Below, one piece after another: positions 53,470 to 64,000 of a stretch of 64,000 bases of DNA. A model generated the notes under the pieces. That model worked only from the letters and a program-made list of their open reading frames with translations. It searched no databases and was not told where the DNA came from. Positions within the stretch are counted from its first letter, which is position 1. The number at the start of each line of letters is the position of its first letter. A program made the translations under genes and the position numbers. The stretch spans positions 310,001 through 374,000 of the forward strand of contig NC_022357.1 of assembly GCF_000297055.2 (NCBI RefSeq), given 5' to 3'. Source of the DNA: Sulfuricella denitrificans skB26. Its GTDB lineage: Bacteria > Pseudomonadota > Gammaproteobacteria > Burkholderiales > Sulfuricellaceae.

Positions 53470-54285
53470 ATGAACTGGAAATCTGCGGGTGCATTTGATG
53501 ACATTCTTTTTCACCAGGCTGAAGGCATTGCCAGGATTGCCATCAATCGTCCGGAGGTGCGCAACGCCTTTCGTCCCCAAACTGTCCGGGAGTTGATGGA
53601 TGCATTTCATCAGGCGCATATGGATTCATCTGTCGGTGCCATCATCCTTACCGGCGCGGGCGACCAGGCGTTTTGCTCCGGCGGTGACCAGAAAGTGCGC
53701 GGCGACGATGGCGGCTATCATGACGAGCAGGGCGTGCCTTATCTGAATGTGCTGGATTTGCAGCGCCAGATTCGCGGCCTGCCCAAGCCGGTGGTGGCGA
53801 TGGTGGCGGGCTACGCCATCGGCGGCGGCCATGTGCTGCATTTGATCTGCGATCTGACCATCGCGGCCGACAATGCCCGCTTCGGGCAGACCGGCCCACG
53901 CGTCGGCAGTTTCGATGCTGGCTTCGGCGCAGGCTTACTGGCGCGTACGGTCGGCATTAAAAAAGCCAAGGAGATCTGGTTTTTGTGTCGCCAGTACGAT
54001 GCCGAGGAGGCGTTGGCGATGGGTTTGATCAATGCCGTGGTGCCACTGGCCGAGTTGGAGAACGAAACGGTGAAGTGGTGCAAGGAAATGCTGCAACTCT
54101 CGCCCACTGCGCTGCGCGTGCTAAAGGCCTCGTTCAATGCCGATACCGATGGTCTGGCAGGTATTCAGGAATTGGCCGGCAATGCCACAGCGCTCTATTA
54201 TATGACGCCGGAAGGACAGGAAGGCCGCAATGCCTGGTTGGAAAAGCGGGCCCCCGATTTCGGCAAGTTCCCGCGCCGGCCGTAG
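53470..54285 (+). CDS. menB: 1,4-dihydroxy-2-naphthoyl-CoA synthase
   Basis: 271 residues of the crotonase family with MenB-specific motifs [16 protein letters not shown], the bicarbonate/aspartate segment VGSFDAGFG and the C-terminal [13 protein letters not shown]. Closes the naphthoate ring in menaquinone synthesis. First gene of the men operon; menA follows after 19 bp. Confidence 0.95.
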
Positions 54286-54304
54286 CATCATCAAGCGCTA
54301 TGAG

Positions 54305-55213
54305 ATGAGCAACTCAGTAACCAGCACTCAGCACTCGGCACTTCACGCCTGGTGGCTGGCGATCCGCCCCAAGACCTTGAGTGTTTCGCTGACGCCGGTG
54401 ATGGTCGGCAGCTGCATCGCCTATGCCGAGGCCGGCGTAATTGCCTGGCTGCCCCTACTGGTGGCGCTGCTGGCGGCGATGCTGATTCAGATCGGCACTA
54501 ACCTGCATAATGATGTCAGTGACTTTGAGCGTGGCGCGGATAACGCTGAACGCGTTGGCCCGGCCCGCGCTACCGCCTCCGGATGGCTCGCCCCTGTAGT
54601 CGTACGCCGCGCTGCTTTCGCCTGCTTCGGCCTGGCTGTGCTGCTGGGGATTTACCTGGTCTGGCATGGCGGCTGGCCGATCCTGCTGCTCGGGCTTTGT
54701 TCCGTTGCCGCCGGCTGGGCTTATACCGGCGGGCCTCGCCCGATTGCCTACAGTGCTTTGGGTGAGCTATATGTCTGGCTGTTTTTTGGGCTCGGGGCGG
54801 TGATGGGCAGCTATTACCTGCAAACTCTGCGGCTGGACTGGGCGGCTTTCGTCGCCGCCTGTATGGTTGGCCTGTTTGCCGCTGCCGTCATTGCTGTCAA
54901 CAATTACCGCGATCTAGACAGTGACCGGAAGATCGGCAAAAACACCCTGGCAGTGCGAATCGGACGCGGTGCCAGTCAGGCAGAATATGCGCTGCTGCTG
55001 TTTACGCCCTACTTGTTGCTCCCGCTGTTGGTTTATTTGAGTCATTCCGGTTGGGGAGGCGTGCTGCCACTGTTGTCGCTGCCCCTCGCATTTTCATTGC
55101 AGCAGCGATTCCGGCATGAGCGGCCAGGGCCAGTGTTCAACCGCATCCTGGCGCAGACTGCGCAACTACAACTGATTTTTGGGTTTCTGCTAAGTATCGG
55201 ATTGCTGTTATGA
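54305..55213 (+). CDS. menA: 1,4-dihydroxy-2-naphthoate polyprenyltransferase
   Basis: 302 residues, UbiA-fold, about eight helices. Substrate motifs NLHNDVSDFERGAD near residue 65 and NNYRDLDSDRKIGK near residue 200. Attaches the isoprenoid tail to make demethylmenaquinone. ATG 54305 chosen over a longer frame; the 5' end contains CAGCACT direct repeats. The next gene overlaps by 4 bp. Confidence 0.93.
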   Translation: MSNSVTSTQHSALHAWWLAIRPKTLSVSLTPVMVGSCIAYAEAGVIAWLPLLVALLAAMLIQIGTNLHNDVSDFERGADNAERVGPARATASGWLAPVVVRRAAFACFGLAVLLGIYLVWHGGWPILLLGLCSVAAGWAYTGGPRPIAYSALGELYVWLFFGLGAVMGSYYLQTLRLDWAAFVAACMVGLFAAAVIAVNNYRDLDSDRKIGKNTLAVRIGRGASQAEYALLLFTPYLLLPLLVYLSHSGWGGVLPLLSLPLAFSLQQRFRHERPGPVFNRILAQTAQLQLIFGFLLSIGLLL

Positions 55214-55719
55214 CTAGACTGGCTTATTTGCTTACTCTGATTTTTTACCTGATGGCCGGGACATCTGCTGCCGCCGAAATGGAGCTCATGCCTTCCGCCG
55301 CCCCGGTGTTTGCCGCCACTCTGGCCGATTTCGACGGTAAGCCGGTGCCGCTGGTGGAACTGAAGGGCAAGCTGGTGGTATTGAATTTCTGGGCGACCTG
55401 GTGCGGGCCTTGCCGCACGGAGATACCGCACTTGATCGAGGCCCAGGAAAAGTATGGTCCACGCGGCATTGTTTTCATGGGCGCAGCGGTTGAGGATAAT
55501 GCCGATTCGGTGCGTGATTTTGGCAAGGCCTATGGCATCAACTATCCCGTATTAATGGCCGGCAAAGAGAAAGGTATTGCCCTGTTGCGTGCCCTTGGCA
55601 ACAAGATCGCAGGACTGCCCTTTACTATCGTGCTCGATCGCCAGGGCAACATCGTTGCTGCCAAGCGCGGAATCATGACACCAGCCCTCCTGCAGAAGAC
55701 GCTCGATCCTCTCCTGTAG
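55210..55719 (+). CDS. TlpA-like periplasmic thioredoxin
   Basis: 169 residues. Signal peptide ending TSAAA, thioredoxin fold with active site WATWCGPCRTE near residue 68. It sits inside the men operon (ATGA overlap with menA, 1-bp overlap with menC). Could keep haem or copper-site cysteines reduced for the cytochromes or NosZ; this is inferred from position. Confidence 0.88.
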   Translation: MTRLAYLLTLIFYLMAGTSAAAEMELMPSAAPVFAATLADFDGKPVPLVELKGKLVVLNFWATWCGPCRTEIPHLIEAQEKYGPRGIVFMGAAVEDNADSVRDFGKAYGINYPVLMAGKEKGIALLRALGNKIAGLPFTIVLDRQGNIVAAKRGIMTPALLQKTLDPLL

Positions 55720-56804
55720 TGCGCCTTACCCACTGCACTTTCGCCCCTTATCGTTTGCCTTTGCGCCAGTTGTGGGTCAGTGCGCGTGGTGGATTCGTCG
55801 TGCGCGAAGGCTGGTTGGTCAGGCTGGAGACCGACGCGGGACTGACCGGCTACGGTGATTGCGCCCCGCTTCCACAGGCTGGCACAGAGAGCATGGACAG
55901 TGCCGTAGCTTGCCTGTCAGATTGGGCTACGACTCTACCCGGGCTGCCGCTGGAGGTGGCGCTCGGCAGGATAACCGCTGGCGCCGCCGGAGCTCCTGCG
56001 GCCTGCTGCGGTCTGGAAACGGCGTTGCTCGACTTGTTGGCGCAGCAAGCCGGGCTTCCTCTGGCGCGCTGGCTTAATTCACATTCATCCGCCGCCGTCA
56101 AAGTTAATGCCGTGATCGGTGGTCTGGATAGCCAGATAGTTGAGCGCGCATTGGCCGCGGTGGCCGAAGGCTATTCAGTGCTCAAGCTGAAGGTAGGGCT
56201 GGCGGCAGGGCATGAAGAAATCCCTTTGCTGCATAATCTGGTGAGTTGCCTGCCGGCGGGCGTTTCCTTGCGGCTGGATGCGAACTGTGCGTGGAATGAG
56301 GGGCAGGCGGAAGTTTTTCTCAGTGCATTGACCGGTCTGCCGGTGGAATCGGTCGAGGATCCCTTGGTCAACCCGGATATGGCGGGGTGGCTGCGTTTAC
56401 AGGCTAAAGTTCCTTTCCCGCTGGCAGCGGATGAATCCTTGCGGATCATGGGTGTGGATGCGGCGTTTAATCAGCCTCCGGTATGGCGTGTGGTATTGAA
56501 GCCAATGGTGCTGGGTGGGCTGGTGTCTGCGCTGGCGCTGGCGCAGCGGGCGCGTGAGGCGGGTGTGGAATGCGTGGTAACGACCACGGTGGACAGTGCG
56601 GTAGGGGTGTCTGCAGCCCTGCACTTGGCGGCTGCCGTGGCGAACAATCTGGCACATGGATTGGCCACTTCAGCCTGGCTGGAGAGTGATGTGGTAAATC
56701 CGCCGCGGCCAACAAGCGGGGTGTTGCGGCTTGGAGATAGCCCAGGGCTGGGATGCGTTCCCAGCAAAGAATTCGAACATTCTGTGAAAATATTTATTGG
56801 TTGA
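55719..56804 (+). CDS. menC: o-succinylbenzoate synthase-type enolase
   Basis: 361 residues of the enolase superfamily: KxK acid/base in LKLKVG near residue 153, metal ligands in RLDANCAW, VEDPLV and ADESLR, and the second lysine in VVLKPM near 260. MenC dehydrates SHCHC to o-succinylbenzoate; the superfamily also contains muconate cycloisomerases and dipeptide epimerases, but the men neighbours decide. GTG start shares a base with the previous TAG. The stop codon overlaps an FNR-type box. Confidence 0.85.
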   Translation: MRLTHCTFAPYRLPLRQLWVSARGGFVVREGWLVRLETDAGLTGYGDCAPLPQAGTESMDSAVACLSDWATTLPGLPLEVALGRITAGAAGAPAACCGLETALLDLLAQQAGLPLARWLNSHSSAAVKVNAVIGGLDSQIVERALAAVAEGYSVLKLKVGLAAGHEEIPLLHNLVSCLPAGVSLRLDANCAWNEGQAEVFLSALTGLPVESVEDPLVNPDMAGWLRLQAKVPFPLAADESLRIMGVDAAFNQPPVWRVVLKPMVLGGLVSALALAQRAREAGVECVVTTTVDSAVGVSAALHLAAAVANNLAHGLATSAWLESDVVNPPRPTSGVLRLGDSPGLGCVPSKEFEHSVKIFIG

Positions 56805-56814
56805 TCTAGATCAT
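56801..56814 (+). promoter_or_regulatory. FNR/DNR-type box 1 upstream of nosZ
   Basis: TTGATCTAGATCAT matches TTGAT-N4-ATCAA at 9 of 10 positions, overlaps the menC stop and lies about 250 bp before nosZ. A TATATT follows at 56831. Confidence 0.65.
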
Positions 56815-56926
56815 GAGTTGATGGTGGTGTTATATTACACACCTCACGGATATTGATATCCTGAATGTCGGAGCGCTTAAATAGTGCTGAAAACATGGGA
56901 GTAGGGGTAGATAAACCATGGTTAAC

Positions 56927-56940
56927 TTGATCTAGGTCAA
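56927..56940 (+). promoter_or_regulatory. FNR/DNR-type box 2 upstream of nosZ
   Basis: TTGATCTAGGTCAA matches the FNR/DNR consensus (TTGAT-N4-RTCAA), centred at 56933.5, about 125 bp before the nosZ ATG. A weak -10 (TAACAAT, 56962-56968) would put it near -41.5. Confidence 0.75.
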
Positions 56941-57060
56941 AGATTTAAGATGTGCTATACATAACAATATGTGTGTCAAATCGCACACCTTGGATTTTTG
57001 TTAGCGTAGGTCAGGGCGGGTTTTTCCTTAAATACGGTTTTTAATAAATAGGAGACGTTT

Positions 57061-59358
57061 ATGAATCTCTTCACTAAGCAAACAGCCACGCTGGCATTAG
57101 CGGCGGGGATGGGTTTTGCCGCAGTGTCCAGTGCCTGGTCGGCGGAATCGCTGCAGGACGTAATGAAGCGTCGCGGTTTGTCGCAGCAGGACTTGTTGGC
57201 AGCGTCCAAAACTTATGTTCCGACTGGCAAGCGCGATGAATTCGTCGCCTTCAGTTCGGGCGGCCAGTCTGGCCAGGTGATCGTGTACGGTATTCCGTCT
57301 ATGCGTATCCTGAAATACATTGGCGTGTTCACGCCGGAGCCATGGCAGGGTTATGGTTTCGATGAAGAATCCAAGGAAGTACTGAAAGGCGGTCGCATCG
57401 ATGGTAAGGACATTACCTGGGGCGATACCCACCATCCGGCGCTTTCCGAAACCAACGGCAAGTACGACGGCCAGTTCCTGTTCATCAACGACAAGGCTAA
57501 CCCCCGTCTGGCGGTGATCGACCTGCGCGACTTCGAGACCAAGCAGATCGTGGTCAACCCGATTTTCAAATCTGAGCACGGCGGTGCTTTTGTCACCCCG
57601 AACACCGACTACGTGATTGAGGCTTCGCAATACGCCACTCCTTTTGCGAACAAGAAATTTGTTCCGCTAGAGCGCTTCAATGAAGAGTATCGCGGTGGCG
57701 TGACCTACTGGAAGTTCGACCGTAAGGAAGGCAAGATTGATGTGAAGAAATCCTTCACGCTCGAGCTGCCACCCTACAGCCAGGACTTGTCTGATGCCGG
57801 TAAACTGGCTTCCGATGGTTGGTCCTTTACCAACTCTTTCTGTACCGAGCGTTACGTCGGTGGTATCGAGAAAGGCCGTCCTCCCTATGAGGCAGGCTGC
57901 TCGGCAAAAGACACTGACTACATGCACGTGATCAACTGGAAGAAAGCCGCCGAACTGGTCGCTGCCGGCAAAGCCAAGAAGGTCAATGGCATGGATGTGA
58001 TTCCGATGGACGTATCCATCAAGGAAGGCATCCTGTTCCTGATTCCGGAGCCGAAGAGCCCGCACGGCGTGGACGTAACGCCTGACGGCAAGTTCATCAC
58101 GGTTGCTGGCAAGCTGGATACGCACGTTTCGGTATACAGCTTCGAAAAGATCATGGCGGCGATCAAGGCCGGCAAGTTCGAGGGCAAGGATCCCTACGGC
58201 ATTCCCGTGATTTCCATGCAGGACACGCTGCACAAGCAGGTTCAGTTGGGCTTGGGACCATTGCATACCCAGTATGACTCCAAGAAGTGCGTGGCTTACA
58301 CCTCGTTGTACGTGGATTCCCAGGTTGCTAAATGGGACTACTGCGAAGGCAAGGTGCTGGACAAGATCTCCATTCACTACAACATCGGCCACTTGATGAC
58401 CATGGAAGGTGATACGGTAGATCCTAAAGGCCATTACCTGGTTGCGCTGAACAAGCTGGCGATCGACCGCTTTAACCCGGTTGGACCGTTGCATCCGCAG
58501 AACCATCAGCTGATCGACATTTCCAACGACAAAATGCAGTTGTTGTACGACATGCCGATTCCGCTGGGCGAGCCGCATTATGTCGTGGCGATCGATGCCA
58601 AGATGCTGAAGCCTGGTATTCGCTACAAGGTGGGTACCAACAGCCGGACCGACAAGCCTAGCGCAGGTGCGGTAAGGGCGGGTGAAGAGCATACCGACAA
58701 GAAAGCCGGTAAGGTGGAAGTGTTCGGTACTCTGATTCGTTCCCACATCACGCCGGAAACTATCGAGGCGACGGTGGGTGATGAGATAACTATCCACCTG
58801 ACCAACCTTGAGCGTGCTGAGGACGAAACCCATGGCTTTACGGTAAGCACTTATAACGTACATGCTTCGGCTGAACCGGGCAAAACCGTAACGGTTAAGT
58901 TCAAGGCAGACAAGGAAGGTGTGTATCCTTACTATTGCACCGAGTTCTGCTCCGCGTTGCACTTGGAAATGCAGGGTTACTTGCTAGTCAAGCCGAAGGG
59001 CTACAAAGAAGTCAAGGTTGCTGCGGCCAAGGCTGATTACAACAAGGCTGACTACGACAAGCAAGTGAAGAAAATTGCTGATACCCAGGCCGTAATTGAC
59101 AGCGTGGTGGGCTTCATCACCAGCCACAACTACAAGGACTTCCCTGATGTAGTGGCACTGGTGGAGGATGCAACCGACCAGTTGGGCCGCATGAAGGAAG
59201 CCAAGGCCAAGCATGAAGAATCGGCCAAGAAGCAGGATTGGCAGAATGCTACCCTGTGGGCTGAGCAAGTCTGGCAGTACCAGGTTAAAGCCGCCGACAT
59301 CGGTCTGCGCGCCAAGACCTACCTGGAGGAGCATGGTGCCAAGAAGGTGGGCAAGTAA
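57061..59358 (+). CDS. nosZ: nitrous-oxide reductase, clade II type
   Basis: 765 residues. Reduces N2O to N2 in the periplasm. The N-terminus is a plain Sec signal (LALAAGMGFAAVSSAWSA) without twin arginines, the mark of clade II. Histidine clusters for CuZ (DTHHPAL, SEHGGAF, KSPHGVDVTP, GPLHTQYD, GHLMTMEG, GEPHYV) and the CuA site C626-TEF-C630-SAL-H634-LEM are complete. After CuA the protein runs about 105 residues further as a Lys/Asp/Ala-rich helical tail lacking CXXCH. GGAG precedes the ATG, two FNR-type boxes stand upstream and a strong terminator follows. Confidence 0.97.
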   Translation: MNLFTKQTATLALAAGMGFAAVSSAWSAESLQDVMKRRGLSQQDLLAASKTYVPTGKRDEFVAFSSGGQSGQVIVYGIPSMRILKYIGVFTPEPWQGYGFDEESKEVLKGGRIDGKDITWGDTHHPALSETNGKYDGQFLFINDKANPRLAVIDLRDFETKQIVVNPIFKSEHGGAFVTPNTDYVIEASQYATPFANKKFVPLERFNEEYRGGVTYWKFDRKEGKIDVKKSFTLELPPYSQDLSDAGKLASDGWSFTNSFCTERYVGGIEKGRPPYEAGCSAKDTDYMHVINWKKAAELVAAGKAKKVNGMDVIPMDVSIKEGILFLIPEPKSPHGVDVTPDGKFITVAGKLDTHVSVYSFEKIMAAIKAGKFEGKDPYGIPVISMQDTLHKQVQLGLGPLHTQYDSKKCVAYTSLYVDSQVAKWDYCEGKVLDKISIHYNIGHLMTMEGDTVDPKGHYLVALNKLAIDRFNPVGPLHPQNHQLIDISNDKMQLLYDMPIPLGEPHYVVAIDAKMLKPGIRYKVGTNSRTDKPSAGAVRAGEEHTDKKAGKVEVFGTLIRSHITPETIEATVGDEITIHLTNLERAEDETHGFTVSTYNVHASAEPGKTVTVKFKADKEGVYPYYCTEFCSALHLEMQGYLLVKPKGYKEVKVAAAKADYNKADYDKQVKKIADTQAVIDSVVGFITSHNYKDFPDVVALVEDATDQLGRMKEAKAKHEESAKKQDWQNATLWAEQVWQYQVKAADIGLRAKTYLEEHGAKKVGK

Positions 59359-59383
59359 ACCCGCTGACTAGGTTGTAACACCG

Positions 59384-59415
59384 GCGGGGAGCATGAAAAT
59401 GCTCCCCGCTTTTTT
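59384..59415 (+). terminator. rho-independent terminator of nosZ
   Basis: 11-bp perfect stem GCGGGGAGCAT / ATGCTCCCCGC, GAAA loop, then T6 (59410-59415). Confidence 0.95.
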
Positions 59416-59467
59416 GGCTGTAACTTATTAATTAAAGACAATAAGATGTGTATATCTTTATTGTTGG

Positions 59468-59481
59468 TTGATCTGCATCAA
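59468..59481 (+). promoter_or_regulatory. FNR-type box upstream of cytochrome c553-like gene
   Basis: TTGATCTGCATCAA is a perfect match to TTGAT-N4-ATCAA, 62 bp before the ATG, with TGTAAA at 59505-59510 as a plausible -10. Confidence 0.85.
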
Positions 59482-59542
59482 TATAAAGGTTAGAATTTTG
59501 CCGTTGTAAAACGGTGTTGTTATTTGATTAGGAGTCTTAAAG

Positions 59543-59860
59543 ATGAAACTTTTACCAGTTGTAGCAGCTACTATGTCCGCAGCTTTGATCTGCGGCACGG
59601 CCTTTGCGGGCGATGGTGCCAAGCTGTTTGCGGAGAAAACCTGTACTGCCTGCCACGGCAAGGATGGAAAAACCCCGTTGATGCCGGATTACCCGAAAAT
59701 TGCCGGCCAAAACATCAAGTACGTTGAGAAGCAAATGACCGACATCAAGAGCGGTGCCCGTGCGAACGGCAACAGCGCAGCCATGAAGGGCGTGATGGTT
59801 ATCGTGACCGACGCAGAGATCAAGGATCTGGCGGCCTACGTTTCCAAGATGAAACCCTGA
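59543..59860 (+). CDS. small monohaem cytochrome c (c553-like), nos region
   Basis: 105 residues. Signal peptide ending TAFA, haem site CTACH, and a methionine ligand probably in AAMKGVM. Periplasmic electron carrier, likely donor to NosZ given position and shared FNR-type control. AGGAG 9 nt before the ATG. Separate from nosZ by a terminator. Confidence 0.92.
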   Translation: MKLLPVVAATMSAALICGTAFAGDGAKLFAEKTCTACHGKDGKTPLMPDYPKIAGQNIKYVEKQMTDIKSGARANGNSAAMKGVMVIVTDAEIKDLAAYVSKMKP

Positions 59861-59895
59861 TTCAGGGATGTTGCCTGAGCGGAAATTATTTTGGA

Positions 59896-59938
59896 TTGAT
59901 ATAAATCAATGCGCAAGTCAGGCAATGTTTAATATAAT
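59896..59938 (+). promoter_or_regulatory. FNR-type box with consensus -10, upstream of dihaem cytochrome
   Basis: TTGATATAAATCAA (59896-59909) is a perfect FNR site; TATAAT lies at 59933-59938, which places the box at about -41.5, the class II activator position. Confidence 0.88.
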
Positions 59939-60019
59939 TTTTTAAACTAAATGACTGAACAAATACTCTTAGAACATAAGAGTATTGAGTTCGGGTTTGT
60001 GACTTCGAAAGGGAAGACA

Positions 60020-60757
60020 ATGAAAAAAGCATTAGTAGTAGCACTGACCCTGGCTTTGTTGCCGGCAACAGCAGCTTTGGCTAATCCCAATGTGGCCGAG
60101 AAGAAATCCGGTATTGAGGCCAAAGGCTATGTATGGAACTCTCAGGAAGGCGGCGAAAAGATCGAGGCGCTAAAACTCAAGGGCGACGTCAAGAATGGTA
60201 AAGAAGCCTATGAAATCTGTGGTGCCTGTCATCTGCCCAGCGGCTCAGGTCGTCCTGATGGTACCTTCCCGCAGTTGGCCGGTCAGCACTCCACCGTGAT
60301 CATCAAGCAGATTGCCGACATTCGCGCCGGCCTGCGTGACAACCCGACCATGTACCCGTTTGCCGTGACCCTGAGCGATGCACAGGAACTGGCTGACGTG
60401 TCCGCTTACATCCAAACTCTGTGCATTCCTCGCGAACACGGCATGGGCTCTACTGACCCTGTTCTTCTGAAGCATGGCGAAGAATTGTACAAGAAAGAGT
60501 GCACCTCCTGCCACGGCAAGACTGGTGAAGGTGACAAGTCGAAGTTCTACCCAGTTCTGGCCGGTCAGCACTACAAGTACATGCTGCGCCAAGTCACCGA
60601 GATTCGCGATGGCAAGCGCCGTAACGCCAATCCGGACATGGTGAAAATCGTGAAGAAATACAGCGATCACGATCTGGACTCGGTGGTGACCTATATGTCC
60701 ACACTGAACATGCCTGGCACCCTGTGCGCTGTGAAAGGCGCTGGCAAGAAGAAGTAA
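60020..60757 (+). CDS. dihaem cytochrome c, nos region
   Basis: 245 residues. Signal peptide ending AALA, two class I haem sites CGACH and CTSCH, cytochrome c4-like arrangement; both halves contain PQLAGQHS / PVLAGQHY. GGGAAG precedes ATG 60020. Its own perfect FNR box and -10 mark a separate unit. Likely links NosG/NosH or a quinol oxidase to NosZ. Confidence 0.92.
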   Translation: MKKALVVALTLALLPATAALANPNVAEKKSGIEAKGYVWNSQEGGEKIEALKLKGDVKNGKEAYEICGACHLPSGSGRPDGTFPQLAGQHSTVIIKQIADIRAGLRDNPTMYPFAVTLSDAQELADVSAYIQTLCIPREHGMGSTDPVLLKHGEELYKKECTSCHGKTGEGDKSKFYPVLAGQHYKYMLRQVTEIRDGKRRNANPDMVKIVKKYSDHDLDSVVTYMSTLNMPGTLCAVKGAGKKK

Positions 60758-60793
60758 GTATTGGCAGACAGACGTCTGGCAGTTCAAAAAAAA

Positions 60794-60825
60794 CTATAGA
60801 AGGCAGGGAGACCTGCTTTTTATAG
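60794..60825 (+). terminator. hairpin terminator after dihaem cytochrome
   Basis: 14-bp stem (two G-T wobbles) 60794-60807 / 60812-60825 with GAGA loop; the T5 run is part of the stem, and an A-run precedes it. Confidence 0.65.
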
Positions 60826-60840
60826 CCTACCAACATTAGT

Positions 60841-60869
60841 TTGTAAGTATATATTTGTTAGCATATATA
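60841..60869 (+). promoter_or_regulatory. sigma70-type promoter of nosB
   Basis: TTGTAA (60841-60846), 17 bp, TATATA (60864-60869), about 95 bp before the nosB ATG. No FNR-type box nearby. Confidence 0.7.
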
Positions 60870-60962
60870 ATAATATCGTAGCCGAGACGGTTTAGGCGAT
60901 GTCTCAGGGGCGGCTTTATGCCTACGGGTTTTACCCAGAATTCAATATGGTGAGTGTTTAAG

Positions 60963-61937
60963 ATGACGAACGGTGCAAAGAATCAGGTTTGGTGGGTCAG
61001 AGGGTTAACTCTAGTCGCTTTGGCGCTTATGATCGCTGCGTATTTTACGCCGATCTGGTGGGTATCCCTGACCGCACCGAACTATCCCAAGGCAGCGTTC
61101 CCGGATGGGATCCGCATTCACTTCCACTTTAATGGTGTGTTTAACGGTTGCAAGGCTCCCGTCCAGAAAAAAGGCTCACATGCGAGTGAAATTCTTCAGG
61201 CTGACCTGGGTGATGATATTGCTGAACGTACCGGAGGTGTCGCACAGGGTGACGTTGAAGTTGGCTTGAACTGCGTGCATGAAATGAACACCATCAACCA
61301 CTATGTGGGGATGTACCCGATCGATACCGGTGCGCCGGTAGAGGTTCCTATGTCGAAGTTCTTCTTCGGATTCTTTGCCGTGCTACTGTTGGGGTTCATG
61401 GCGACCCAGCGCAAACAGCAGTTACTAATACTGGGCGCGGGTTTCGCGGCCGTAACTGCGTGGATGGTGACAGACCAGATCGTCATGGGCCATTTGAATG
61501 TTTTTGCCGACCATTATTACCATGAAGCGAGCACTTTCTTCAATCAGCCCGAGGTATTAGAGCGCTGGACGGCCAACCTGAAGTGGGCGACCAAAGCGGC
61601 TATGGCAGGGCTGGTTGTGGCGATGCTGATCATCATGCTGGGTGTCTGGAAAATCCGCCGTTTTTCACTGTTGTTGGCCTTGGTTCCTGCCTTGCTCCCT
61701 GTTTTTTTCGTCCTGGATTACGCGGGTTGGTTGTGGTTTTTTGGGCATAACATGCATCCATGGGGGGCCTTCACCGTCAAGCCCTTCATGCCAACCGTGT
61801 TCGGCGAGGGCAAGGTCGCGCAATTTAGTACCTACTCCTATCCCTACTATGGCTATGCCATTTTGCTGGCCGCATCCGCCGCGTTGCTCCCGGCAATCCT
61901 GATTCGCCGCAAAATGATGCGGGAAGAACAGGGTTGA
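60963..61937 (+). CDS. nosB: NosB-like membrane protein
   Basis: 324 residues, about six helices (first near residues 12-32, others from about 130 to 315) with a periplasmic loop containing two cysteines (NGCKAP, LNCVHE) and many histidines (HFHFNG, DHYYHE). Position between the cytochromes and nosD and the size fit NosB, a protein specific to clade II nos clusters whose role is unknown. ATG 60963 follows GGTGAG; a GTG at 60954 is the alternative. Confidence 0.85.
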   Translation: MTNGAKNQVWWVRGLTLVALALMIAAYFTPIWWVSLTAPNYPKAAFPDGIRIHFHFNGVFNGCKAPVQKKGSHASEILQADLGDDIAERTGGVAQGDVEVGLNCVHEMNTINHYVGMYPIDTGAPVEVPMSKFFFGFFAVLLLGFMATQRKQQLLILGAGFAAVTAWMVTDQIVMGHLNVFADHYYHEASTFFNQPEVLERWTANLKWATKAAMAGLVVAMLIIMLGVWKIRRFSLLLALVPALLPVFFVLDYAGWLWFFGHNMHPWGAFTVKPFMPTVFGEGKVAQFSTYSYPYYGYAILLAASAALLPAILIRRKMMREEQG

Positions 61938-61956
61938 AAGGGTAGAATGCCCTGTC

Positions 61957-61979
61957 CCCCCGCTCTAAGCAGGCGGGGG
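61957..61979 (+). other. G/C hairpin between nosB and nosD
   Basis: CCCCCGC (61957-61963) pairs with GCGGGGG (61973-61979), 9-nt loop, 20 bp after the nosB stop and 43 bp before the nosD start. No T-run; could stabilise or attenuate the transcript. Confidence 0.5.
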
Positions 61980-62022
61980 ATTGCGTCCTCATGAAATTTT
62001 ACCCAATATAAAAGTTGAGCTT

Positions 62023-63369
62023 GTGACTAACGGTCTGCGAATAGCCTGTGTAGGGATGTTGTTGGCGTCATTTGCGATCCCCGTTGGCGTTGCCGCTGAG
62101 TTTGAAAGCAGCCCCGATCTGAGTGCTACTCCTCGCGTGGATGTGGATAAACCGGTGGAACTGGTTCCGCTCTCCGAGCGCGATCCCCGTATCCATCATT
62201 TGATCCCTTTCCAAAAACTGGTGGATGCCACTCCCGCAGGCGGGACTCTCAAGCCCAAGCCCGGCACCTATGCCGGTCCGGTTCTGGTGGACAAGCCGAT
62301 TGTGATCGATGGCGCCGGAAAGGTGACCATAGATGGCGGTGACAAGGGGACGGTGTTCGTGCTCAAAGCCAACAGCTCCACGATACGCGGCCTGCATCTT
62401 ACGGGATCGGGCTCGCATCACGATACCGACGATGCCTGCATCAATGTGCGTGGCAACAACAACTATATCGAATCCTTGGTGATAGACAACTGCCTGTTTG
62501 GTATCGACCTCAAGCAGTCCAGCAACAATGTCATCCGCAATAACCAGATACGTTCCAAGCCTCTGGAATTAGGTGTCAGGGGTGACGGCATCCGGCTCTG
62601 GTACAGCATGAATAACCGGATTGAAGGGAACCGGGTGGTGGATTCACGCGACAACGTGGCCTGGTATTCGAATGGCAATGTTTTTTATCGGAACTATGGT
62701 ACCCGCAGCCGCTATTCCATCCATTTCATGTTTGCCAACAACAATGTCGTGGACAGCAATAATTTTTACGATAACGCAGTGGGCGTGTACCTGATGTACA
62801 ATGAAAATACCGTGGTACGGAACAACATCTTCTCCCACTCCAACGGCGCGACCGGCATGGCGATAGGCTTCAAGGAAGCCAGCGCGGTGCAGATCGAAAA
62901 CAATGAAATTATCTACTGCGCGATTGGTATCGGCTCCGACCTGTCCCCTTTCCAGCCCGGCACCACCATCCAGGTCAAGGGCAACCGCTTCGCCTACAAC
63001 GGCATTGCAATCGCATTCAACAGTGACCGGGACGGGCATTATTTTCTTAAGAACATCTTCGAAGGTAATTTGACCGACGTTTCCGTTGGCGGTGCAGGAT
63101 CCGCAAAACGTAACGTGTGGCGCGGAAATTACTGGGATGATTATCAAGGGTTCGACCGCAACAATGACGGAGTCGGCGATACTCCCTACAAGCTTCATGC
63201 CTATGCAGACCGGATCTGGATGGAAGTGCCGCACGCGCGCTTTTTCAAGAATGCACCCCTGATGGAGGCGATCGATTTCCTTGAAAGGCTGGCACCTTTT
63301 TCTGATCCAGAACTAATTCTGCATGATGATGCTCCAATGTTTCACCTACCGAGGAAGGCACGAAAGTGA
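62023..63369 (+). CDS. nosD: NosD, periplasmic beta-helix copper-site assembly protein
   Basis: 448 residues. Signal region RIACVGMLLASFAIPVGVAA, then a right-handed beta-helix of CASH repeats rich in Asn (NNNYIESLVIDN, NNVIRNNQI, NNRIEGNRV, NTVVRNNIF). NosD with NosFY supports maturation of the CuZ site. I take GTG 62023, which begins directly at the signal; a TTG at 61981 would add 14 residues. Overlaps nosG by 4 bp. Confidence 0.93.
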   Translation: MTNGLRIACVGMLLASFAIPVGVAAEFESSPDLSATPRVDVDKPVELVPLSERDPRIHHLIPFQKLVDATPAGGTLKPKPGTYAGPVLVDKPIVIDGAGKVTIDGGDKGTVFVLKANSSTIRGLHLTGSGSHHDTDDACINVRGNNNYIESLVIDNCLFGIDLKQSSNNVIRNNQIRSKPLELGVRGDGIRLWYSMNNRIEGNRVVDSRDNVAWYSNGNVFYRNYGTRSRYSIHFMFANNNVVDSNNFYDNAVGVYLMYNENTVVRNNIFSHSNGATGMAIGFKEASAVQIENNEIIYCAIGIGSDLSPFQPGTTIQVKGNRFAYNGIAIAFNSDRDGHYFLKNIFEGNLTDVSVGGAGSAKRNVWRGNYWDDYQGFDRNNDGVGDTPYKLHAYADRIWMEVPHARFFKNAPLMEAIDFLERLAPFSDPELILHDDAPMFHLPRKARK

Positions 63370-64000
63370 CGACTGATAAGAAACCGGCAGTCCCTGGCAA
63401 CAGGGTGGTCAACAAGCGCAAGCTTGAGGAACGCCGTCGATTTCTGCGCTCTATCATTCTGGGCGCGGCGGTGTTGGGTATTTCCACACTGGGATACATC
63501 CCTGTGGCCAGTGCATGGCGCGTGCGCATGAGACCGCCAGGCGCACTGGAAGAGTCGGATTTCCTTTCCTCCTGCATCAAGTGTGGGCAGTGTGTTCAGG
63601 TTTGTCCGGTCCAGGCGATCAAACTCGATGACATCGACCATGGCTTTGGTGTCGGCTTACCCTATATTGACTCACGCAGCCAGGCCTGTGACTTTTCCTG
63701 CGATGCCGTGCAGTGCATTCTGGCTTGCCCTACCGGTTCGCTGGTTTACAAGAAACCCGTCTTCATGCCGACGCGCAATGGGATGAGGGTGGCAAATCCG
63801 CCCATCCTGCTCGCCAAGGAAAAAGATCCGGAGCCGACTCTGAACATCAGGGAGCGTACCGGATTGGCGCGCCTGGCGCGCCCGGATGCCTGTCTCGCCG
63901 TTCAGGGCAAGGGATTCAAGGGTCAGGCGCGCGGTGCCGATTTCAAAGGTCGCATGCGTTTTATCGAAGTGGACCGCTGGAAGCCGATCCCTCTTCGGGA
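63366..64000 (+). CDS. nosG: NosG-like iron-sulfur protein, partial at window end
   Basis: The first 211 residues are visible. A twin-arginine signal (ERRRFLRSIILGAAVLG) is followed by two four-cysteine clusters, CIKCGQCVQVCP and CDFSCDAVQCILACP, as in NapG/NosG periplasmic ferredoxins. With a NapH/NosH-type membrane partner it would oxidise menaquinol and feed electrons to cytochromes for NosZ. GTG start overlaps the nosD stop (GTGA). The gene continues past position 64000. Confidence 0.9.
   Translation, partial: MTTDKKPAVPGNRVVNKRKLEERRRFLRSIILGAAVLGISTLGYIPVASAWRVRMRPPGALEESDFLSSCIKCGQCVQVCPVQAIKLDDIDHGFGVGLPYIDSRSQACDFSCDAVQCILACPTGSLVYKKPVFMPTRNGMRVANPPILLAKEKDPEPTLNIRERTGLARLARPDACLAVQGKGFKGQARGADFKGRMRFIEVDRWKPIPLR

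Follow-up and report, generated by a model that had tools for sequence, protein, structure and literature searches.

Menaquinone biosynthesis genes bracket a clade II nitrous oxide reductase operon in Sulfuricella denitrificans and recur beside such operons in distant relatives

Nitrous oxide (N2O) is a greenhouse gas that the nos genes convert to harmless N2. In Wolinella succinogenes the clade II nos cluster comprises NosZ, two cytochromes c, NosB, NosG and NosH, as the title of one study and a section on NosGH in another (PMC3475470) describe it, and that section presents NosGH as a NapGH-like module that oxidizes quinones. A passage of PMC11539149 outlines how electrons reach NosZ by two routes, one through cytochrome bc1 and the other through NosGH-NosBC2-NosC1. 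Here we describe a clade II nos operon in the sulfur-oxidizing bacterium Sulfuricella denitrificans skB26 that lies between two groups of menaquinone biosynthesis (men) genes, in and just beyond a 64,000-nucleotide stretch of the chromosome (hereafter the window; G000:C1:310001-374000). The assembly (G000) is 99.99% complete and totals 3,217,213 bases, divided between two contigs that represent a chromosome (3,130,594 bases) and a second replicon (86,619 bases).

Wolinella makes menaquinone by the futalosine route, and the men genes of Escherichia coli are ordered menF-D-H-B-C-E. The Sulfuricella locus shares its nos components with the former and its pathway and enzymes with the latter. It differs from the Wolinella cluster in that men genes bracket nos, the o-succinylbenzoate pathway is used and ubiquinone is probably also made, and from the E. 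coli cluster in that the men genes stand in two halves with nos between them and no menH is named among them. Literature searches, which covered sources other than subscription journals, returned no printed description of a men-nos neighbourhood in the parts of the texts consulted, Sulfuricella included; this is weak evidence that the arrangement is unpublished.

We consider it likely that the locus is one functional neighbourhood, in which the men pathway stands around clade II nos because NosG and NosH are fed by menaquinol, in a cell that also makes ubiquinone. The full order is menB-menA-tlpA-menC / nosZ-c-c-nosB-nosD-nosG-nosH-nosF-nosL-nosY / menG-menE-menF-menD (C1:363470-382601), so that seven men genes (menF, D, C, E, B, A and G) bracket nos inside 19.1 kb, all on the + strand. 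Gene calls were made with NCBIfam curated cut-offs and Pfam gathering scores (PF identifiers). The features are as follows; positions are those of the window unless prefixed C1.

53470-54285, +, menB, 1,4-dihydroxy-2-naphthoyl-CoA synthase (TIGR01929 430.7 bits, cut-off 342.7; NF005637 489.7 bits, over cut-off)
54305-55213, +, menA, 1,4-dihydroxy-2-naphthoate (DHNA) polyprenyltransferase (TIGR00751 201.8 bits, cut-off 102.15; PF01040)
55210-55719, +, tlpA/resA-type thiol-disulfide protein of 169 residues (PF08534/PF00578 over gathering score; NCBIfam matches all below cut-off)
55719-56804, +, menC, o-succinylbenzoate synthase (TIGR01927 138.1 bits, cut-off 130.55)
57061-59358, +, nosZ, clade II (Sec-type) nitrous oxide reductase (TIGR04246 908 bits, cut-off 625)
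59543-59860, +, monohaem cytochrome c, nosC1-like by position (PF00034)
60020-60757, +, dihaem cytochrome c, nosC2-like by position (PF00034, two stretches)
60954-61937, +, membrane protein, nosB-like by position only (no family match; same place conserved in relatives)
61981-63369, start uncertain, +, nosD, copper maturation protein (TIGR04247 365.6 bits, over cut-off, stretch 62074-63369)
63366-64000, continuing to C1:374214, +, nosG, ferredoxin-type quinol dehydrogenase subunit (NapG/MauM-type matches below cut-off on the cut protein; position)
beyond the window end, to C1:377372, +, nosH, nosF, nosL and nosY (family matches, position)
C1:377485-378210, +, menG (ubiE-type), downstream of nosY
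C1:378217-379542, +, menE (best match menE, 294.3 bits, below the cut-off of 330.15)
C1:379555-380907, +, menF (over cut-off)
C1:380904-382601, +, menD (over cut-off)

NosZ scores 908 bits on the Sec-type model versus 383 on the TAT-type model, which places it in clade II. Because the libraries gave general matches or none, the names given to nosL, nosY, nosB and the two cytochromes rest on position and conservation. No NCBIfam model named NosG or NosH was matched by the locus proteins; NosG was assigned from sub-cut-off matches and position, and the protein in the NosH place exceeds the NapH/MauN cut-off (TIGR02163, 237.4 vs 213.05). A preliminary description of the window had reported the upstream menB-menA-tlpA-menC group, and all four open reading frames (ORFs) are present, with MenB, MenA and MenC over their NCBIfam cut-offs. 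It had also proposed looking for further men genes elsewhere in the genome, and menD, menE, menF and the ubiE-type menG are found on the other side of nos; a MenD search of the genome returned a single protein over cut-off (C1:380934-382223), 7 kb beyond the window end. MenD, MenF, MenB, MenA and MenC of the o-succinylbenzoate pathway thus all exceed their cut-offs, and MqnC of the futalosine pathway has no match in the genome. Ubiquinone-type ubiA is also over cut-off, so that two quinones probably run in this cell.

Since NosGH is described as a quinone-oxidizing module and a NosGH route leads to NosZ, we interpret the locus as a quinone supply combined with its consumer. Menaquinol produced by the bracketing men genes would be oxidised by NosGH, which would pass the electrons on towards NosZ, and ubiquinone would be kept for the other chains of the cell.

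In order to relate menaquinone genes to clade II nosZ, we surveyed 399 genomes of the order (G000 included), sampled from a larger group. Clade II NosZ was over cut-off in 29 genomes, MenD in 26 and both in 22 (p = 2.6e-26); MenD was found in 22/29 clade II genomes versus 0/38 genomes with a low-scoring NosZ (p = 5.8e-12), both p-values coming from Fisher tests that ignore relatedness. The low-scoring class is full-length, scores 427-497 bits on the clade II model and is presumed to be clade I, the TAT model not having been applied to it; one partial match (G161) is excluded. Four genomes of the order have MenD but no clade II NosZ. Elsewhere in the class, MenD occurs in 11/20 clade II genomes, where absence means no match at 1e-50. 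A member of the same genus (G145, 98% complete) lacks NosZ, MenD, MenB and MenA together.

The two genes are also physically close. Of the 33 genomes that hold both, 19 have nosZ and menD no more than 25 kb apart, against 0.7 expected, with genes on different contigs scored as not near; the proportion is 12/22 within the order and 7/11 in the class outside it. Counted by family, linkage occurs in 6/10 (p = 2e-6), in at least five gene orders. Men and nos could be adjacent by shared ancestry alone, and because the genera of the family of S. denitrificans (f1) form clades in both the MenD and the NosZ trees, descent can explain the repeat within f1; the five or more arrangements across six of ten families, and the specificity of the tie to clade II, make such a neutral neighbourhood highly improbable as a general account.

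Within f1, five relatives have the complete layout (G302, G243, G213, G062 and G014). In G106 the layout is the same, but the contig stops at menA and MenB was not found in the assembly. The downstream men half follows nosY in G383, G358 and G331 as far as the contigs reach. In other families the sets combine differently. Three f20 genomes (G020, G150 and G187) have nosZ-nosZ..nosY-tlpA-menG-menA-menB-menC-menE-menF-menD, and G067 of this family shows divergent halves; in many loci of other families the tlpA homologue comes after nosY. Outside the order, three f153 genomes have nos..menC-D-B-F, and in two f149 genomes men is divergent from nosZ. The men genes flank nos on both sides in G650, of yet another family; G519 has nosY-menG-menE with the other men genes about 7 kb further. 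Linkage is partial in Azospira oryzae (G278), where menA lies 8.5 kb before nosZ and the remaining men genes are more than 400 kb off, and in the Dechloromonas-type genomes G218, G111, G363 and G336, where menB and nosZ are 29-33 kb apart and menD is at another place; in G522 and G482 men and nos are unlinked. The preliminary description had suggested that the quinone genes and the reductase are kept, and perhaps moved, together. The recurring adjacency bears out the first half of that suggestion. Of the two outcomes that the description had listed as refuting it, a genome devoid of other men genes and close relatives devoid of the adjacency, neither is observed. The pairings in distant relatives suggest that clade II N2O respiration often runs on menaquinone.

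The second half fares worse. Phylogenetic trees were built from chosen matches (36/59 for MenD, 51/172 for NosZ and 56/99 for MenA, many matches being duplicates). The same description had proposed comparing men with nosZ gene trees; with MenD, the trees concur on the two f1 genera (f1g1 and f1g2) and on f149 as sister to f153, and part ways inside f20. Family f1 is one clade in the MenD tree (99/95); in the NosZ tree its two genera are each a clade, their joint place open. The f20 conflict is well supported: G187 groups with G792, G020 and G150 by MenD and with G307 by NosZ, and G792 itself pairs in the NosZ tree with G248, a MenD-less genome. Hence the men and nos sets have not always travelled together. 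In the MenA tree the linked f20 proteins stand apart from those of f1, which is not what one would expect had the full set shared one simple history. One could still suppose that the neighbourhood was built once and spread between genera as a single quinone-plus-reductase block, since several f1 members share an identical gene order and both traits are patchy in the order (29/399 for clade II NosZ, 26/399 for MenD). We regard this as very unlikely, given that gene orders vary among families, that the trees conflict inside f20 and that a nos operon close to that of the window occurs in G024 without MenD or MenB; the separate men and nos sets of two f1 genomes (G182 and G273, below) further contradict joint movement. 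With at least five gene orders in six of ten families, the linkage appears to have formed repeatedly, so that the men-nos arrangement, judged from gene orders and trees, arose more than once by local gene assembly.

The G024 operon, from another family (L102), is 94% identical in nosY and 87% in nosH to the nos operon of the window, and would have been transferred, or retained, alone. In G182 the dihaem nos cytochrome occurs a second time (L080 5240-5911; 69% identical over 225 residues) between menC and menG, the site where nos stands in relatives, and this is possibly the footprint of a lost nos operon. Together with the placement of G182 and G273 within genus g2 in the MenD and NosZ trees, it suggests that the sets parted later there.

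Control signals were sought in the window in order to see how nos and men might be expressed.

56801-56814, +, FNR/DNR-type box (TTGAT-N4-ATCAA, 1 mismatch)
56927-56940, +, second FNR/DNR-type box upstream of nosZ (1 mismatch)
59468-59481, +, perfect FNR/DNR-type box upstream of the first cytochrome gene
59896-59909, +, perfect FNR/DNR-type box upstream of the second cytochrome gene
59383-59410, +, terminator-like hairpin after nosZ (12 pairs, 8 G-C, then a T run; L002 7384-7411)

The first box contains the menC stop codon (56802-56804), just as the preliminary description had it. Boxes with at most one mismatch number 6 in the window versus 1.72 expected, a count reached in 1/100 shuffles, and the nos region holds 4/6 of them. 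Terminator-like sites are no more frequent than chance (23 vs 20.9 in shuffles), the hairpin after nosZ being the strongest; given this hairpin, nosZ is probably driven by one promoter and the stretch running from the cytochromes to nosY by another. Neither a terminator-like site nor an FNR-type box was found in the 112 bases that separate nosY from menG, and menG-E-F-D are spaced by 6 and 12 bases or overlap. These four genes probably share a transcript with nosB-Y, and quinone supply and reductase would then be raised together.

Several observations weigh against a dedicated supply of menaquinol to NosGH. Seven of the order's 29 clade II genomes (G024, G248, G201, G088, G258, G371 and G247) have neither MenD nor MqnC over cut-off, which implies that clade II nos can work without the o-succinylbenzoate menaquinone pathway; four of them (G024, G248, G201 and G088) have ubiA over cut-off, so that either NosGH works without menaquinone there or another donor serves. 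In the rest of the class, MenD is likewise absent from 9/20 clade II genomes. Within f1, menB-A-tlpA-C is not directly upstream of nosZ in G383 (about 25 kb away) or in G358 and G331 (menB on another contig). In G182 and G273 the nos and men sets are apart: nos is at another site, accompanied by a tlpA-type gene that diverges from nosZ, and menA-menC-menG-E-F-D stand together, with menB of G182 4 kb before menA and other ORFs between. The metagenome-assembled genome (MAG) G813, whose NosZ falls inside clade f1g2, has nos without adjoining men genes and lacks MenD. In the S. denitrificans cluster neither menH nor MenI was recognised, no genome search having been aimed at either, and the box scan found none upstream of menB. 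Wolinella clade II respiration reportedly also requires the Rieske/cytochrome bc complex, to go by a study title. In Nitrosophilus labii, menaquinone genes are described as unchanged on N2O addition in a passage of PMC11539149.

A further difficulty is that a NapG-type gene and a nir-type cluster adjoin menD, for the men genes may then serve the whole denitrification chain. More broadly, they may supply anaerobic respiration in general (Nir, Nap, arsenite/arsenate), nos being one neighbour in a denitrification island. The NapG-type gene, a NapH-like partner and the nir-type cluster (by eye) all lie within 2.5 kb after menD, and an ArrA/ArxA-type protein on the second replicon would fit such a role. 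Against it, the lack of MenD from all 38 genomes with low-scoring, presumably clade I, NosZ indicates that MenD does not track denitrification as such, and in other families it is nos that recurs next to men (as nosY-tlpA-menG-A-B-C, or with men and nosZ divergent). We therefore hold the general role to be rather unlikely, and prefer a neighbourhood centred on nos. The tie of menaquinone to clade II is a tendency and not obligatory: the proposal in the preliminary description that clade II respiration draws on menaquinol stands as a clade II-specific tendency and falls as a rule. Should the reductase depend on menaquinone in this way, the supply of quinone would be a genetic marker, and possibly a limit, of N2O removal, also for bacteria usually taken as ubiquinone users.

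The NapG-type gene and its partner lie on the - strand directly after menD (C1:382602-384319; L006 8602-10319), beside the nir-type cluster, which was assigned by eye. Visual inspection of the 20-kb stretch showed no napA, and the NirS-like protein after menD has no NCBIfam match at 1e-10. The molybdoprotein of the 86.6-kb second replicon (L284 10116-12944) has ArrA as its best match, below cut-off; arxAB is reported on a plasmid of strain skB26 in a section of PMC6397845. A mobile element behind the gap of about 25 kb between menC and nosZ in G383 was considered and not supported, as the ORFs look, by eye, like ordinary chromosomal ones. In G273 a YbgC-like hot-dog thioesterase between menC and menG (L078 11752-12177; matches below cut-off) is a candidate DHNA-CoA hydrolase (MenI function). 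As for the futalosine pathway as a hidden menaquinone source in MenD-less genomes, the idea was rejected, with MqnC over cut-off in 0/34 and 0/28; G811, which has MenD, has an MqnC match of 303.6 bits, below the cut-off of 428.1. G247 carries MenB (C68:12074-12850) and MenA (C82:41514-42350) over cut-off in addition to clade II NosZ, with no MenD, MqnC or ubiA over cut-off.

Many clade II relatives lacking MenD retain the last steps of the pathway. MenD was surveyed in 50 hand-chosen loci out of 77 named ones (absence again meaning no match at 1e-50). Dechloromonas agitata has both MenD and a clade II nos cluster, and many of the MenD-less genomes keep MenA over cut-off; most MenA-positive, MenD-negative genomes are MAGs whose completeness is not stated, and the family searches in them covered MenD, MenA, MenB and MqnC rather than MenC, MenE or MenF. 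In eight (G795, G802, G805, G806, G807, G808, G771 and G781; Rhodoferax and other betaproteobacterial MAGs) nosY-tlpA-menG-menA is followed by a gene of the sodium/bile acid symporter family (SBF; PF01758, two proteins checked) that touches or nearly touches menA. Neither MenB nor MqnC is over cut-off in these eight; G806 and G809 have MenB-family matches of 314 and 311 bits, below 342.7. In Denitromonas ohlonensis menG-menA-SBF and nos are separated by about 15 kb, and in G801 menA-SBF lies close to nos but on the opposite strand. G798 fits the pattern, although contig ends interrupt it, and in Azonexus SBF follows nosY-tlpA, with menA at another place.

L240 2305-3204 and L241 2980-3861; homologues L242-L250, L253, L129, L148 and L152: SBF-family transporter after menA or nosY-tlpA of clade II N2O reducers

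All 13 searched genomes of these loci (that of L148 not included) lack MenD and MenB over cut-off. Among genomes with at least 1 kb of flanking room, SBF adjoins menA or nosY-tlpA in 13/17 that have MenA without MenD and MenB (menA alone, 11/17) versus 0/34 with MenD. No SBF was seen in G770, G782, G258 and G371, and for two of the four genomes without SBF, Azonexus fungiphilus and A. hydrophilus ZS02, the region behind nosY is not checkable. Left out of the count were G785 and G796 (incomplete menA matches), G574 (menA-like fragment at a contig end), G247 (MenB present), and G776, G793 and G797 (MenD absent, MenB present, no SBF). In five close pairs, menG, menA and SBF have ratios of nonsynonymous to synonymous substitution rates (dN/dS) of about 0.05 to 0.18, indicating purifying selection. 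The SBF-bearing MenAs form two well-separated lineages, with those of G801 and Denitromonas of unresolved place.

With menA, mostly menG, and SBF left, such a cell apparently cannot synthesise the naphthoate head group. Our own proposal is that the SBF protein is a candidate DHNA importer. It leans on two reports, each cited here from part of its text: Lactiplantibacillus plantarum uses exogenous DHNA (PMC10746273), and in Candidatus Symbiobacter mobilis a soluble quinone intermediate is suggested to reach the cell (PMC4053972). L. plantarum resembles the MenD-less relatives, as distinct from S. denitrificans itself, in keeping a DHNA prenyltransferase without the rest of the pathway, according to the same portion of PMC10746273; the relatives differ in that menA and an SBF transporter occur together within or close to nos, or SBF alone stands by nos. 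Tentatively, then, betaproteobacterial clade II nos operons may often carry a quinone slot behind nosY, and cells with menA and SBF may import the DHNA of neighbours and finish menaquinone themselves. Such import would make N2O removal depend on cross-feeding, that is, on a shared vitamin-like precursor.

Among 39 named loci with at least 1.2 kb of room after nosY, men genes follow in 15, a divergent UbiA-type prenyltransferase in 8, SBF in 3 and none of these in 13. The prenyltransferase stands after nosY-tlpA (L156 20610-21551; L115, L117, L121, L126, L127, L141 and L163) in Sulfurisoma, Sulfuritalea, Desulfobacillus and other hosts. MenD searches found no MenD in genomes that carry it. It is 27-31% identical to MenA, falls well outside the MenA tree and may produce a different quinone.

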